DNA from: Spiroplasma diminutum CUAS-1 | Lineage (GTDB): Bacteria > Bacillota_I > Bacilli_A > Mycoplasmatales > Mycoplasmataceae | NCBI RefSeq assembly: GCF_000439455.1 | Contig: NC_021833.1 | Location: 62,001-126,000, forward strand | Length of the DNA stretch: 64,000 bases | Direction of reading: 5' to 3' | Shown here: positions 22,483 to 48,747 of the stretch, piece after piece | How the letters are laid out: every line of letters begins with the position of its first letter | Position numbering within the stretch: the stretch's first letter is position 1 | Translations under genes and position numbers: made by a program | The notes under the pieces: model-generated | Seen by the model: only the letters and a program-made list of their open reading frames with translations | What the model was told of the DNA's origin: nothing | The model's database searches: none

Positions 22483-22895
22483 GGGGGTGTCCTGGTTTCG
22501 ACAGGATACAGCTGACTCATAACTGCAGTGGTTTGGTAGACCTTAATACTTCTAGGTTTGATAAAATGCAAACGAAGAAAAAAATGAATTTGAAATGCCA
22601 GCATTTATGTTCAATAATGCAACAGCTGGAGTTGCTTTAGCAGCTTAATAAACTTTTAAAGTTTATAGCAGTTCAACGTTAAGAAATGTGTTTGTACTTC
22701 ATTGATTAACGTATTACCTAGTACAATAGAATGAATGATTCTAATGATAAATTTGTTCGAAATACCATCATTAGCGCTATAAATTTAAATCTTGTTGCCT
22801 CTGTTGGTTTGTAGTGTAAGTTAGAGACAACTAAACTGTAGATGTTATGGGTTGGAGTATTTTGGACGCGGGTTCGATTCCCGCCATCTCCACCA
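22483..22895 (+). ncRNA. ssrA: tmRNA
   Basis: Transfer-messenger RNA that rescues stalled ribosomes and tags the unfinished protein. The 5' end GGGGGTGTCCTGG pairs with the 3' end CATCTCC followed by encoded ACCA (acceptor stem 22483-22489 with 22885-22891). The T arm GCGGGTTCGATTCCCGC is just before the 3' end and the GGTTTCGAC hallmark follows the 5' acceptor strand. The tag reading frame begins at GCA 22568. About 413 nt, normal for a one-piece tmRNA. Partner smpB is at 20344. Confidence 0.97.
22568..22648 (+). other. tmRNA tag reading frame (26 codons)
   Basis: From the resume codon GCA at 22568 the frame reads ANEEKNEFE, then MPAFMFNNATAG, and ends VALAA before tandem stops TAA TAA. The Ala-Ala end is the usual protease-recognition tail; the MPAFM core resembles tags recalled for Mesoplasma and Spiroplasma tmRNAs. 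Confidence 0.85.
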
Positions 22896-27662: not shown

Positions 27663-27682
27663 AGATTTGTAAATAAAGTAAA

Positions 27683-27748
27683 ATGCTTTTATAAGTCAGC
27701 ATATTGGGCTGATGTTTCTACAATGTACCTATACATTTCTAAAAGTAT
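27683..27748 (+). promoter_or_regulatory. Purine riboswitch aptamer
   Basis: Three-way junction of the purine class. P1: ATGCTTTTA (27683-27691) with TAAAAGTAT (27740-27748). P2: TCAGC (27696-27700) with GCTGA (27708-27712), loop ATATTGG. J2/3 contains TTTCTAC. P3: AATGT (27722-27726) with ACATT (27733-27737), loop ACCTAT. The GG of L2 and CC of L3 can form the loop-loop contact. The base matching position 74 is C (27739), which in this class points to guanine or a related guanine nucleoside rather than adenine. The gene downstream is a nucleoside-binding lipoprotein, consistent with purine control. Confidence 0.85.
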
Positions 27749-27758
27749 ACATAGAAAG

Positions 27759-27804
27759 GAGTAAACTTTTTCAGCAGTGATATTAGAAAGTTTACTCTTT
27801 TTTT
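27759..27804 (+). terminator. Riboswitch-controlled terminator
   Basis: GAGTAAACTTT (27759-27769) pairs with AAAGTTTACTC (27787-27797), followed by seven T residues. ACTTTT in the 5' arm can instead pair with AAAAGT of the P1 3' strand (27741-27746), giving an antiterminator when the aptamer is empty. Ligand binding would therefore switch expression off. Confidence 0.8.
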
Positions 27805-27924: not shown

Positions 27925-29304
27925 ATGAAAAAATTAATATCAGGATTAATGGCAGTAGCAGTTGTTGGTTCAAGTGCTTCAACTGTTGTTGCGTGTGTTA
28001 AAAAATATAAACCATACAATGAAATATATCTTGTAACAGATGCAGGAAAAATTAATGATAAATCATTTAACCAATCAGGATATGATGGTGGAAATGAAAT
28101 AATGAATTTACTAGGAGTTAATGAAGATAAACAATACGATGGAATTGGGTATTTCCAACCAGCAACTTTAAGTGAATTGAAAGATGGATACAGAAATGCA
28201 GCAGATTCTGGTGCAAAAACTCTTATCTTACCTGGATTTAAACATAATGAAGATAATTTAAAAACAGCATCAGAACTTATTGGAAAAAACAATGGAAATA
28301 CAATCTTATTAGATGGTACTGCAACAGATGCAAGTGGAAAAGCAATTGAAAACTCTGTTGGGTTCTTATTTAGAGCTGATATATCTGCATTCTATTCAGG
28401 AATGGCTTCAATTATATGATCATTAGCAAATGGAAATTATAATACAGCTAATGATGGTGAATTGAAATTAGCAACATTTGGTGGAATTCCTAATGGAAAA
28501 GCTGTTGATAACTTTATGCATGGTTATCTAGCATCAATTGACGCTTATAATACGTTAAAAGCTGAAGAAAAAGGAAAGGAAGCAATTAAAACTTTACTTA
28601 CATCAGCAGGAGCAGAGGAAAATTCACTTGATAAACTTTTAAATGTAAATGTTTCAAGAATTAGTTCGCAAGACGGAAGTAAAGACCTAGAAAATATTAA
28701 TTTCTTTACTAATAGTTTTGATGCAGGAAAAGGTACTGAAATTTCAAAAAAAATGATTGGACAAGGTGCTAACGTTGTAATGGCAGTTGCCGGTCCACAA
28801 ACTGGAGACTTACTACAACAAATAAGAGAAGCAAATTCAAAAACATTAGTTGTTGGAGTTGATACTAATCAAGTTGATTCTTATCAAACATATTCAGATA
28901 AATTTATTACATCTGCTGAAAAGGATTTAGTATCAGCTACAGTAGCTGGTGCAGCAATGACAACTTATTCAAATAATGAAGCATTTAAAACTGCTGCAGA
29001 TGAACACATCAAAAAAGCTGTTTTAACAGAAGATCAAGAATCAAAAACTGATTGAAAAGGTGAAACAATTTATATGGGTGGAAAATTCTCTCAAGGTGGA
29101 AATAATAAAGTAGATAAAAATTTACATGACGCTATTTCTTTATTATTTAAAGAAGAATATATAATTGCATCTTCAGAATATTATTTTGAAAATGTTAAAG
29201 ACGCTTGAAATGAGAACTTAGCAACTGATTTTATAACAGCTTATGCAAAAACTATTACAGATAAATTATTAGCTGCTACAGGACCAGAATCAGGAGCAGA
29301 ATAA
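27925..29304 (+). CDS. BMP/PnrA-type nucleoside-binding lipoprotein
   Basis: Substrate-binding lipoprotein of a nucleoside ABC importer. The 459-residue protein has a signal peptide ending in lipobox VVAC (Cys24), then DAGKINDKSFNQSGYDGG, the family's purine-binding opening, LILPGFKHNEDN, and later VVGVDTNQVDSYQ. AAAGGTAAAT precedes ATG 27925. It leads the ATPase and two permeases at 29371-33848, matching the known order for Bmp/Nup systems, and is preceded by a purine riboswitch. Longer than typical PnrA (about 350 residues) because of extended loops. Confidence 0.9.
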
Positions 29305-44299: not shown

Positions 44300-44563
44300 A
44301 TGACTTCATTCACAGCTACAGTAATTGATCCAGTTGGTTTACATGCAAGACCTGCATCAGTTTTAACTAAAGAAGCTTCAAAGTTTGCATCTGAAATTAA
44401 AATCAAATGCGGAGATAAAGAAGGAAACTTAAAATCAATTATGAACGTTATGGCACTTGCTGTTAAAACAGGTGCTGAAATTACAATTGAAGCAAATGGC
44501 GAAGACGAAAACGAAGCTATTGAGGCAATTGAAAAAGCAATGAAAGATAACTCAATTATCTAA
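44300..44563 (+). CDS. ptsH: Phosphocarrier protein HPr
   Basis: HPr passes phosphate from Enzyme I to sugar-specific PTS enzymes. The 87-residue protein has the active-site His15 in DPVGLHARPA and the regulatory Ser46 in NLKSIMNVMALAV. AAGGAGG precedes ATG 44300 and a TATAAAAT box lies at 44269. ptsI is not adjacent but is at 57439. hprK (8747) is expected to modify Ser46. Confidence 0.97.
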   Translation: MTSFTATVIDPVGLHARPASVLTKEASKFASEIKIKCGDKEGNLKSIMNVMALAVKTGAEITIEANGEDENEAIEAIEKAMKDNSII

Positions 44564-44596: not shown

Positions 44597-44745
44597 TTAA
44601 AATATTATGCCTTTATAATGTTTTAATAAAAATTTATATGACAATTTCAAGGAAATTAAATTTTATTAAAAAAAAATTAAAAAAAGGTTTCTTTTTACTT
44701 TTTTTTAGTTATAACATTATAGAAATGAAAAACACAATTTCGCAA

Positions 44746-44857
44746 AAAAAGATGTCAGGTAATTTGGTGAAATTCCAAAACTGTACCAGCACCTGTAATA
44801 AGTAAATAAATTTAAAAAATTAGTTTATAAAATCAAAGTCAGAAACCTGGTCTTTTT
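44746..44857 (+). promoter_or_regulatory. Cobalamin-riboswitch-like element upstream of nrdFIE
   Basis: The core matches the cobalamin aptamer family in order and spacing: P4 TTTGG (44763-44767) with CCAAA (44775-44779) closing TGAAATT, so that GGTGAAATTCC is the conserved L4 region; then ACTGTACCAGCACCTGTAA (44780-44798), the counterpart of CTGCCCGCAACTGTAA; then a variable A/T-rich hairpin; then AAGTCAGAAACCTGG (44836-44850), a B12-box-like P13. A closing helix AAAAAGA (44746-44752) with TCTTTTT (44851-44857) encloses the domain. The element is compact: the P3 hairpin upstream of P4 seems missing. Ligand identity is inference. Confidence 0.7.
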
Positions 44858-44912
44858 ATAACAAATCTTTTACTGGCTATAAAAGAGAATATTTATTAGA
44901 TAATATTTTAGC

Positions 44913-44935
44913 CACGATACAAACATCGTGTTTTT
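44913..44935 (+). terminator. Terminator in the nrdF leader
   Basis: CACGAT (44913-44918) pairs with ATCGTG (44925-44930), loop ACAAAC, then TTTTT. It lies 156 nt upstream of the nrdF start. TGGCT at 44874-44878 can pair with AGCCA at 44910-44914, overlapping the stem base, which would form an antiterminator. Confidence 0.75.
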
Positions 44936-45090
44936 GTTTCACTAAATAAGCAATATGTTTTGTGAAATGATCTATTTTATATAGTTATCATTTTTAATAA
45001 CCCAAAATTAAGGTTTTTAAACATAATTGAAGGCGTAAATGCCAAAAATTCTATTAAAATATAGAATTGCAACATGAAAGGCAGAAAACC
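44936..45090 (+). other. Rest of the nrdF leader, no gene seen
   Basis: No open frame. It contains small inverted repeats: GTTTCAC with GTGAAAT (44936-44967), GGC...GCC around 45032-45043 and ATTCTAT with ATAGAAT (45049-45066). AAAGG at 45077-45081 is the nrdF Shine-Dalgarno. No second aptamer was recognised. Confidence 0.5.
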
Positions 45091-46113
45091 ATGGCAAAGA
45101 AAAAAAATCAATATTATTATGATTCACTTTCACCAATTGAATTTGCAATGAATAAATTCAATGGAAGAATGAGATCAGTAAACTGAAACGTTATGAACGA
45201 TGATAAAGACTTAGAAGTATGAAATAGAGCAACTCAAAATTTTTGATTACCTGAGAAAGTTCCAGTTTCAAATGACTTAGTTTCATGAAAGACATTAACT
45301 CCTGAATGACAAGAATTAATTACTAGAACTTTTACTGGACTAACATTATTAGATACTATTCAAGCAACAGTAGGGGACGTTGCTCAAGTTCCAAATTCAT
45401 TAACAGACCACGAGCAAGTTATATATACAAACTTTGCATTTATGGTAGCTGTACATGCAAGATCATATGGAACAATTTTCTCAACATTATGTTCAAGTGA
45501 ACAAATTGAAGAGGCACATGAATGAGTAATTAATTGTGATAGTTTACAAGAGAGAGCAAAAGCTCTAATTCCTTATTACACAGGAAATGATCCTTTAAAA
45601 TCAAAAGTTGCAGCAGCACTTATGCCAGGATTCTTATTATATGGGGGATTCTACTTACCATTCTATTTATCAGCAAGAGGTAAATTACCAAATACTTCTG
45701 ATATTATTAGATTAATTTTAAGAGATAAGGTTATCCATAATTATTACAGTGGATACAAGTATCAAAGAAAAGTTGAAAAACTTTCTCCTGAAAAACAAGC
45801 AGAAATGAAAAAATTTGTTTTTGATTTATTATATGAATTAATAGATCTTGAAAATAAATTTTTATATGAATTATATGATGGATTTGGAATTGCAGAAGAT
45901 GCAGTAAGATTCAGTTTATATAATGCAGGTAAATTTTTACAAAACTTAGGGTATGAATCTCCATTTACAGAAGAAGAAACAAGAATCGAACCTGAGATAT
46001 TTACTCAGTTATCAGCTAGAGCAGATGAAAATCATGACTTTTTCTCAGGAAACGGTTCATCATATGTTATGGGTGTTACTGAAGAAACTTCTGACGAGGA
46101 CTGAGAATTCTAA
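45091..46113 (+). CDS. nrdF: Class Ie (metal-free type) ribonucleotide reductase small subunit
   Basis: A 340-residue NrdF. In metal-dependent NrdF the dimetal site uses an Asp, three Glu and two His. Here two His (His122, His216) and the Asp (Asp88) remain but the three Glu positions are Val119 (FMVAVHARSYG), Pro179 (LMPGFLLYGG) and Lys213 (RDKVIHNYY). This Val-Pro-Lys set is the signature of class Ie enzymes, which carry a DOPA radical on Tyr126 and no metal; Tyr126 is present in the ARSYG motif. Pro179 and Lys213 are 34 residues apart, as are the Glu residues they replace. nrdI and nrdE follow. Confidence 0.95.
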
Positions 46114-46119
46114 AAAAAT

Positions 46120-46578
46120 ATGCACAGCGATGTGATAAAAATATCTGATAAAGATATTAAAAAACCAAAAGGAAAAGTGTTTGTTGTATACTTTTCATCA
46201 ATTTCTAACAATACCCATAGATTTATGGACAAACTAGATGTTAGTGATGCAAGAATTCCTTATGAATTAAATCAAGAATTAATTGTTGATAAGGAATACG
46301 TTTTAATAACTCCAACTTATGCTGGAGGCGGCGGAGATACAAAAGGAGCAGTACCAGCTCAAGTAATAAAATTTTTAAACAACGAAAACAATAGGCACTT
46401 ATGTAGGGGAGTTATTGCATCTGGAAATACAAATTTCGGAGATACATTTGCAATTGCAGGACCCATTATTTCGAAAAAACTTAATGTTCCATTATTGTAT
46501 CAATTTGAACTTTTAGGAACACAAAATGATGTAGAATCTATTAGAAAAATCTTAGAAGATTTTTGAGGGGAAAAATAA
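46120..46578 (+). CDS. nrdI: NrdI flavodoxin
   Basis: A 152-residue flavodoxin-like protein with VVYFSSISNNTHRF (FMN phosphate loop), TPTYAGGGGDTKGAVP and SGNTNFGDTFAIAG, the NrdI pattern. NrdI supplies an oxidant that activates NrdF, and in class Ie it is required for making the tyrosine-derived radical. It starts 6 nt after nrdF without a clear Shine-Dalgarno, so coupling is likely. Confidence 0.95.
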
Positions 46579-46581
46579 ATT

Positions 46582-48747
46582 ATGAATACAGATAATATAA
46601 AAAGTCTTTCTGGAACAAATGAATCTGATGAATATATCAAATTAAATGCAAGAGCAAAATTGTTCGTTCCTGGACAAGATAACTTTAAATTAGATATAGA
46701 AGCAGCAGAACTTTATATGAAAGAACATATTGAACCAAATATGATGAAATTTAGTTCTACTAAAGAAAGAATTGAATATTTAGTAAATAATCAATACTAT
46801 GATGAAGAAGTTATTTCAAAATACACAATGGATCAATTAGATGAATTAACAAAATATGCTTATTCATTTGAATTCAAATTTCCAAGTTTTATGGGAGCAT
46901 TAAAATTCTTTAATGCTTATGGATTAAAAACTTTTGATGGAAAACAATATTTAGAAAATTATGAAGATAGAGTTGTTTCAAATGCTTTATTTTTAGCTGG
47001 TGGAAACTTTGAAAAGGCTAAAAATATTCTTAGACAAATCATTTTAGGAAGATTCCAACCAGCAACTCCAACTTTCTTAAATGCTGGAAAAAAACAAAGA
47101 GGAGAATATGTTTCTTGTTACTTATTAAGAGTAGAAGATAATATGGAATCGATAGCAAGAGCTGTAACAACATCATTACAATTATCAAAACGTGGTGGTG
47201 GGGTTGCTCTATGTTTAACAAACCTAAGAGAATTTGGCGCACCAATTAAAAATATTGAGAACCAAGCAACTGGTGTAATTCCAGTTATGAAAATTCTTGA
47301 AGATTCATTTTCATATGCAAATCAATTAGGACAAAGACAAGGTGCAGGAGCAGTTTACTTAAACGTTCACCATCCTGATATTATGTCATTCTTAGATACA
47401 AAACGTGAAAATGCTGATGAAAAAATAAGAATTAAATCATTATCATTAGGAGTTGTTGTTCCTGATATTACTTTTGAATTAGCAAAAGAAAATAAAGAAA
47501 TGGCATTATTTAGTCCATATGATGTAGAAAAAGTTTATAATAAAGCATTTTCAGATATTTCTGTAACTGAAGAATATGAAAATATGTTAAATAATCCAAA
47601 AATCAAAAAAACTTTCATTAATGCAAGAAAATTATTTCAAGCAATTGCAGAATTACATTTTGAAAGTGGATATCCATATTTACTATTCGATGATACTGTA
47701 AATAATAGTAATGCTCATCCAGTTGCTGGAAGAATTGTTATGAGTAACTTATGTAGTGAAATTGTTCAAGTTTCAACTCCAAGTGAATTTAATACTGATT
47801 TATCATTTAGTAAAACTGGAGAAGATATCTGTTGTAATTTAGGAAGTATGAATATTGCCAAAACAATGGAATCAGGAGATGAATTCTCAGAAGTAATTTA
47901 TAACTCAATTCTTGCTTTAGATCATGTCTCAAGAAATAGTGATTTATCAAGTGCTCCATCAATTGAAAATGGAAATCAAAATAATCATGCTGTTGGATTA
48001 GGAGCTATGAACTTACATGGTTTCTTAGCAACAAATCATATTTATTACAATGCACCAGAAGCAGTGGATTTTACAAATATGTTCTTCTATACAATGGCTT
48101 ATCATGCATTTAAAGCATCAAATAAATTAGCAAAAGAATTTGGTTCATTTGCAGGATTTAAAATTTCAAAATTTGCTGATGGTTCATATTTTGATAAATA
48201 TACAAAATGTGAAGAAAGCAAATGAACTCCTGAATCAGATACTGTAAAAGGATTATTTGAAAAATATGGAGTTTCAATTCCAACTCAAAAAGACTGAATA
48301 GAACTTTCAGAAGAAATTAAAAATACAGGATTGGCGAACTCACACTTGATGGCAGTTGCTCCAACAGGATCAATTAGTTATTTATCATCATGTACACCAA
48401 GCTTACAACCAGTAGTTGCTCCAGTTGAGGTTAGAAAAGAAGGAAAACTTGGAAGAGTTTATGTTCCTGCTTATAAAATTGACTTTGACAATATGGGATA
48501 TTATTCATTAGGAGCTTATGAAGTAGGACCAGACCCAATTATTGATATTGTAGCTGCAGCTCAACAACATGTTGATCAAGCTATATCACTTACATTATTT
48601 ATGACAGACCAAGCAACAACAAGAGACTTAAACAAAGCATATATTAGAGCATATACAAAAGGATGTGCATCAATTTATTATGTTAGAGTACGTCAAGAAG
48701 TTCTTGAAGATAGTGAAAACTATGAATGTGATGCTTGTGTAATTTAA
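46582..48747 (+). CDS. nrdE: Class Ib ribonucleotide reductase large subunit
   Basis: Catalytic subunit that reduces ribonucleoside diphosphates. The 721-residue protein has the active-site segments [24 protein letters not shown] and [10 protein letters not shown], and ends in a redox-active CDAC pair (ECDACVI). It lacks the ATP-cone, normal for NrdE. GAGGGG precedes ATG 46582, 3 nt after nrdI. TGA at 48223 and 48295 are Trp. Neither a class II (B12) nor a class III enzyme is in this window. Confidence 0.97.

Follow-up and report, generated by a model that had tools for sequence, protein, structure and literature searches.

A cobalamin riboswitch descendant, probably kept as an attenuator, upstream of the class Ie ribonucleotide reductase operon of Spiroplasma diminutum

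Riboswitch classes were known to change their ligand, and the evolutionary stages before, during and after such a change were rarely seen. In the known structures of cobalamin riboswitches, the ligand site was lined by the junctions J3/4, J5/6 and J6/3. The junction motifs that defined the classes have been discussed previously (PMC11260477). On the protein side, the class Ie chemistry of the Mesoplasma florum R2e and its VPK label have been published (PMC11846895), and in the studied R2e proteins NrdI helped to make DOPA. Both subjects met at one ribonucleotide reductase (RNR) locus of Spiroplasma diminutum CUAS-1. It was analyzed within a window of 64,000 nucleotides (contig NC_021833.1, positions 62,001 to 126,000 of the forward strand), and the coordinates of S. 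diminutum features given here are window positions. The new element at this locus was the leader of the RNR operon; the protein was of a known kind.

The nrdF gene (45091..46113, + strand) was assigned to the class Ie (VPK) R2 proteins from its table 4 translation, a PDB match and a residue alignment. Under table 11 the frame contained seven internal TGA codons, and under table 4 (TGA=Trp) it encoded a single intact protein of 340 amino acids with a TAA stop at 46111-46113. The best PDB relative was the M. florum R2e (6gp2), which aligned at full length, over all 340 residues, with 692.9 bits. The original prediction was that three metal-binding glutamates had given way to Val119 (codon 45445..45447, +), Pro179 (45625..45627, +) and Lys213 (45727..45729, +), with Tyr126 and both histidines remaining and 34 residues between Pro179 and Lys213. 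It was exact on all of these points: no glutamate was present in the alignment to 6gp2 at the three positions where the class Ib equivalents were metal-binding, the histidines were H122 and H216, and D88 was retained too. The V-P-K set was also correctly attributed to class Ie, the M. florum R2e having the same residues. Moreover, the same seven residues (D88, V119, H122, Y126, P179, K213 and H216) were found in 40 of 40 NrdF proteins from 60 genomes of the family. Judged by its residues, NrdF was an ordinary, already described member of class Ie (VPK), and by homology it would be metal-free with a DOPA radical in this species as well.

The next gene after nrdF was nrdI for the RNR assembly flavoprotein (46120..46578, +; TIGR00333, 186.6 bits, cut-off 74.7), which fitted class Ie (VPK). 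It was followed by nrdE for the class Ib/Ie large subunit (46582..48747, +; TIGR04170, 998 bits, cut-off 750), and nrdF-nrdI-nrdE formed a standard class Ie (VPK) RNR operon. On the other side lay ptsH, which encoded HPr (44300..44563, +; TIGR01003, 109 bits). In S. diminutum and the eight relatives of its clade, ptsH was located 482-555 nt upstream of nrdF with the leader alone between them. Elsewhere in the window, a purine-clan riboswitch at 27667-27761 (+) scored 45.1 bits, above the Purine cut-off, and 42.1 bits with the 2'-dG-I model (cut-off 51). The ORF downstream of it (27925-29304, 459 aa) had no NCBIfam match. The window also contained a tmRNA gene (22483-22895, +) with the tag peptide EEKNEFEMPAFMFNNATAGVALAA.

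The family sample of 60 genomes included S. diminutum (G000) and Spiroplasma taiwanense CT-1 (G045). Cobalamin riboswitches (RF00174) above the cut-off were present in 21 of these genomes; the best scores were 66-114 bits in 20 of them, and S. taiwanense had two riboswitches of 38-45 bits. BtuR was encoded in 19 of the 21 genomes with a riboswitch versus 5 of the 39 without one (Fisher 3e-9), and NrdJ in 15 of 21 versus 5 of 39 (Fisher 8e-6). Eight of the ten genomes with both NrdJ and NrdF had the riboswitch directly upstream of nrdF. Among the 30 genomes with NrdF and no intact NrdJ, a riboswitch above the cut-off was found on nrdF in one, namely S. taiwanense. In G033, a lipoprotein-like gene came after the riboswitch, then a gene for a small membrane protein and then BtuR. 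The plain reading of this distribution was that, whenever the B12-dependent NrdJ could work, AdoCbl shut down the RNR that needed no B12 and, in part of the genomes, salvage too. The same logic existed in other bacteria with both RNR classes, for example at Streptomyces nrdABS.

Three further riboswitches (L010, L019 and L026, from G022, G020 and G026) preceded genes for a DeoD-type purine-nucleoside phosphorylase and a deoxynucleoside kinase; it seemed from this that B12 control extended beyond RNR to the salvage of deoxynucleosides. In Mesoplasma-type and other relatives, the nrdFIE operon carried a 2'-dG-I riboswitch instead. This was seen in the genera g3, g7 and g11, and RF01510 was found upstream of nrdF in G003, G007, G008, G012, G013, G052, G054 and G055. 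In G015 and G017, searches for NrdJ, BtuR and NrdF gave no match, yet cobalamin riboswitches with canonical junctions (L013, L022) persisted there upstream of ORFs that looked broken.

The leader of the S. diminutum operon had been called cobalamin-like. The likeness was real, at scores below the thresholds: the segment 44746-44857 matched RF01689 with 33.3 bits (E 6e-6 in a search of 701 bases; curated cut-off 36.5) and RF00174 with 27.1 bits (curated cut-off 31.5), and an Rfam scan of the window at the gathering threshold did not report it. A 2'-dG riboswitch in this position was ruled out, since RF01510 matched other lineages only and gave no match in the leader of S. diminutum or of its clade. 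Weak RF03531 matches lay within the upstream helicase gene and were taken as chance. We also set aside 38-nt matches to RF01689 (AdoCbl-II) such as GAUUCAGUGAAAUUCUGAAACCGACGGUAAAGUCCGGAUGAGAG (L016, L025, L027-L029 and L031), which were located upstream of a membrane-protein gene and which resembled FMN-riboswitch sequence. In the literature covered, which excluded most subscription journals, we found no mention of cobalamin riboswitches in Spiroplasma or Mollicutes.

The history of the locus could be followed in the closest relatives. In S. taiwanense, the gene order was uvrD, ptsH, nrdJ in four broken pieces, a riboswitch, lipoprotein-like genes, a membrane-protein gene, ABC-like genes, btuR, a second riboswitch and nrdF-I-E. 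The btuR gene was in two pieces and the membrane-protein gene also had a stop. This B12 cassette (L228 2985-10481) was decaying through stops and frame breaks, and both of its cobalamin riboswitches survived. The membrane protein of the cassette (174 aa) had no Pfam match; that it was a B12 importer was a guess on our part. In S. diminutum and its eight relatives the cassette between ptsH and nrdF was gone. Family searches, in each of which the positive controls matched, found in the S. diminutum genome no NrdJ and no B12-binding domain above the cut-off, no BtuR, no PduO-type adenosyltransferase, no QueG and no relative of the cassette membrane protein. None of the tested B12 enzymes was left in the nine-genome clade.

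The rpoB tree of the nine genomes was ((G034,G042),((G029,(G041,G043)),(G000,(G039,(G040,G038))))), next to S. taiwanense, with support of 0.70-0.82 for the deeper splits within the nine. The core of the leader was kept in six of them (G000, G038, G039, G040, G034 and G042) and erased in the other three (G029, G041 and G043). It was also gone in G032, G037 and G046, where 83-86 nt separated ptsH and nrdF. The terminator hairpin had folding energies of -5.7 to -7.0 kcal/mol in the six genomes versus -0.9 to -4.4 kcal/mol in the three. Thus, the aptamer and the terminator were kept jointly in six genomes and lost jointly in three, which argued that they were one functional unit.

The original prediction also held that control and cofactor logic did not match at this operon. 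In the relatives the two did match: their B12 switch usually sat on a B12-independent RNR to which NrdJ was the alternative. For S. diminutum the mismatch stood, as the B12 side was lost and the leader remained. A B12-type leader on a B12-independent and presumably metal-free RNR made sense because NrdJ was lost.

The whole leader extended from the aptamer-like part to the terminator (44746-44939, + strand as all its elements). The degenerate cobalamin-riboswitch-like aptamer (44746..44857) was delineated from the RF01689 and RF00174 matches, alignments and pair counts. It consisted of P1 (44746-44752/44851-44857), P3 (44755-44759/44846-44850), P4 with UUUGG/CCAAA (44763-44767/44775-44779), P5-L5 (44782-44791), a J5/6 of the single base C44792, P6 with CUG/CAG (44793-44795/44840-44842), the P6 arm (44805-44812/44821-44828) and J6/3 (44843-44845). 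The CCAG of L5 (44786..44789), invariant in the six genomes, was the proposed kissing-loop partner of CUGG in L13 (44873-44876), the loop of the hairpin CUUUU-ACUGGCUAU-AAAAG (44867..44885). A predicted antiterminator (44875..44913) paired GGCUA (44875-44879) with UAGCC (44909-44913) around an inner AU stem. It overlapped a predicted intrinsic terminator (44913..44939), CACGAU-ACAAAC-AUCGUG followed by UUUUUGUUU, with a folding energy of -6.1 kcal/mol.

The antiterminator was present in the predicted folds of all six leaders and of S. taiwanense, and the leaders of G057 and G058 had GGUCA...UGACC at its sites, a double compensatory change. The fifth pair of the L5-L13 kissing interaction differed among canonical elements. 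Namely, L5 CCCAG accompanied L13 CUGGG in 14 of 14 cases (C with G), and ACCAG accompanied CUGG(C/U) in 8 of 8 (A with C/U); the two types sorted by clade and were counted as one or two events. Among the six leaders, both partners had changed in four pairs; the short AU hairpin standing in place of the P6 arm contained three of the four. The RNAalifold consensus paired AGUCAG with CUGGCU of L13. This pairing was invariant in the six, but its complementarity was incomplete in G057 and G058; we set it aside, and it would be a possible alternative only. A second set of AU-rich hairpins lay downstream of the terminator (UUUCAC...GUGAAAUGAU...AUCAUUUUU, within 44720-45090), with 25 of 38 columns kept in the six. 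GUGAAA also occurred in L4, and UUUCAC stood at the start of the leader in most relatives. Near the ribosome-binding site, a stem GGCGC...GCGCC seemed to vary with compensation.

Conservation within the six genomes was concentrated in three parts of the leader. The P4-P5-P6 core had 38 invariant columns of 41, the segment containing the P13/L13 hairpin 24 of 24, and the 3' side of the antiterminator with the terminator 38 of 41, which made 100 of 106 columns together. In most other stretches 20-66% of the columns were invariant. At fourfold sites, which were an imperfect neutral yardstick, the invariant share was 37.5% in nrdF, 37.8% in a part of nrdE and 50.5% in rpoB. At p=0.505, the binomial chance was 7e-9 for the core, 8e-8 for the P13 segment and 7e-9 for the terminator part. 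Between G000 and G042, the identity of the aptamer region was 0.80 versus 0.67 at fourfold sites of nrdF, and the aptamer evolved more slowly; between G029 and G043 it was 0.62 versus 0.79, and the aptamer evolved faster. The leader sequence was not merely immutable, because G029, G041 and G043 lost it. In the six genomes it appeared to be under purifying selection with none of the searched B12 enzymes found.

This pattern bore on the view that the leader was a neutral fossil, the remnant of a B12 switch in decay, with a similarity that was just left over. Such a fossil would account for both Rfam scores below the cut-offs, the lost P6 accessory arm, the weak P3 and the variable J3/4. It would also agree with the erasure of the leader in three close relatives and with G015 and G017, where cobalamin riboswitches without NrdJ or BtuR demonstrated that relics can linger. 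However, 100 of 106 invariant columns contrasted with 38-51% of the fourfold sites, and the aptamer and terminator were conserved or lost as a unit. We considered a neutral fossil quite unlikely.

The ligand side of the aptamer behaved differently from its scaffold. The canonical elements compared, including those of S. taiwanense, had GGGAA in J3/4, GCAAC in J5/6 and a four-base J6/3 (CAG-NANA-CC). In the six leaders, the A of J5/6 was changed to C (five genomes) or U (one), J6/3 was one base shorter (with the G034 reading blurred by its broken P3), and the GGGAA of J3/4 was lost in six of six, with GGUAA, GGAUA, GGAAA, GUAAA and GCAAA seen instead. Several of the six had a weak P3, and in G034 it was broken. 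A shared change of junctions on a frozen scaffold had the look of a ligand change, and the non-uniform J3/4 with the weak P3 would also fit a pocket that bound nothing any more.

Three forms of a selected leader could be weighed against these data. In the first, the pocket would have been retuned and the leader would be a new variant whose ligand was no corrinoid but a compound linked to the output of RNR, for example a nucleotide or a deoxynucleoside. The shared J5/6 and J6/3 changes and the loss of GGGAA in six of six on the frozen scaffold favored it, and the 2'-dG-I riboswitch on the same operon in relatives was a precedent for sensing of dNTP products. A model built from the six leaders also set them apart, scoring its own members at 135-153 bits and the next element at 75 bits across 320 genomes of the order. 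Matches of this model outside the family (G305, G308, G309, G312 and G313) had canonical junctions and were dismissed as ordinary cobalamin riboswitches. On the other hand, the retuned variant was confined to six closely related genomes, its J3/4 varied among them, and some of the changes could be mimicked by AU drift, so that we regarded it as doubtful.

A second possibility was that the leader still sensed a corrinoid from the host or medium, acting as a shortened class-II-like cobalamin riboswitch. P4, L5, AGUCAG and the L13 partner were kept, class II works without the P8-P12 arm, divergent B12 switches exist (PMC11260477) and, taken as a whole, the cobalamin riboswitches accept a number of different corrinoids (PMC9600662). 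Against it stood the genome, in which a B12 enzyme, an adenosyltransferase and the cassette membrane protein were not found, and the changes of all three junctions, J3/4, J5/6 and J6/3, relative to the canonical elements compared. This was a tentative possibility at best. Finally, a ligand-blind scaffold of kissing loop, P13 and terminator might hold the basal transcription of nrdFIE at a constant level. It would explain why the scaffold and terminator were the most constrained parts while the ligand-side junctions and P3 drifted. However, much simpler means would suffice for a fixed level, conservation of P4 and of its loop would then not be needed, and G032, G037 and G046 managed without any leader; this option seemed somewhat improbable. 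If the leader was under selection, a new ligand, a remaining corrinoid response and a ligand-blind scaffold would each take about a third of the probability.

In our preferred explanation, it was probable that the leader was a riboswitch-derived attenuator of nrdFIE, orphaned and kept by selection. This judgement was about the general explanation and overlapped with those on the rivals, three of which were its possible forms. The descent from a cobalamin riboswitch was evident from the RF01689 and RF00174 matches, from the P4, L5, AGUCAG and L13 letters, which were as in canonical elements, and from the same place upstream of nrdF. The ancestral riboswitch presumably turned down the B12-independent RNR in relatives that owned NrdJ. 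The ancestor of the nine-species clade had probably lost the B12 cassette that lay between ptsH and the leader; a single loss was assumed by parsimony, and several late losses would have left less time for decay. Purifying selection would then have preserved the leader in six species, where it would attenuate transcription, possibly in response to some persisting input. The same layout has been dissected by mutation in the P. megaterium metE switch (PMC10653944), and by analogy its off-switch logic may apply here. In the off state, CCAG of L5 would kiss CUGG of L13, P13 would be held, UAGCC would remain free, and the terminator would form and turn nrdFIE off. With no kissing, GGCUA of L13 would pair with UAGCC, open the base of the terminator and turn nrdFIE on. 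Several observations spoke against the attenuator: the weak P3 and varied J3/4 were also the look of a slowly decaying pocket, the covariation was modest (four two-sided pairs), and the antiterminator overlapped the terminator stem by one or two pairs only. It was rather unlikely that the leader was the first cobalamin-fold variant whose ligand changed after B12 loss and that tuned a metal-free RNR by another metabolite.

Thus, one operon on a shallow tree presented intact switches in relatives, broken B12 genes with a switch in S. taiwanense, a leader kept and remodelled without B12 genes in six species, an eroded one in three and a missing one in three more. This was an unusually clean case in which the fate of a riboswitch after loss of the pathway for its ligand was directly testable with small and cheap constructs. 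The leader was a cobalamin riboswitch descendant that had the P4-P5 core, the L5-L13 kissing-loop complementarity and the same layout, and that departed from the family in score, junctions and B12 context.

In comparison to described systems, the predicted protein showed no difference of substance from the M. florum R2e (PDB 6GP2, 6GP3, 8BT3 and 8BT4). They shared V-P-K, Tyr126, both histidines, Asp88 and nrdI in the operon. The leader shared P4, P5/L5, AGUCAG, the L13 letters, the antiterminator/terminator layout and the site upstream of nrdF with the class I cobalamin riboswitches (RF00174) of B12-competent Spiroplasma relatives. In contrast to them, its J3/4 GGGAA, J5/6 A and 4-nt J6/3 were all changed, its P6 accessory arm was a short AU hairpin, its score was below the cut-off and B12 enzymes were not found in the genome. 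With AdoCbl-II, or class II (RF01689), its best-scoring Rfam family, it had in common the missing P8-P12 arm and a similar size, but it scored below the cut-off of 36.5. The GGAA in J3/4 and UCU in J6/3 of class IIb (PMC11260477) were absent from the S. diminutum copy. The M. florum 2'-dG-I riboswitch (RF01510) sensed a deoxynucleoside and was likewise located on nrdFIE, namely in Mesoplasma-type and other relatives, whereas its fold, from the purine riboswitch clan, was unrelated to that of this leader and absent from it.
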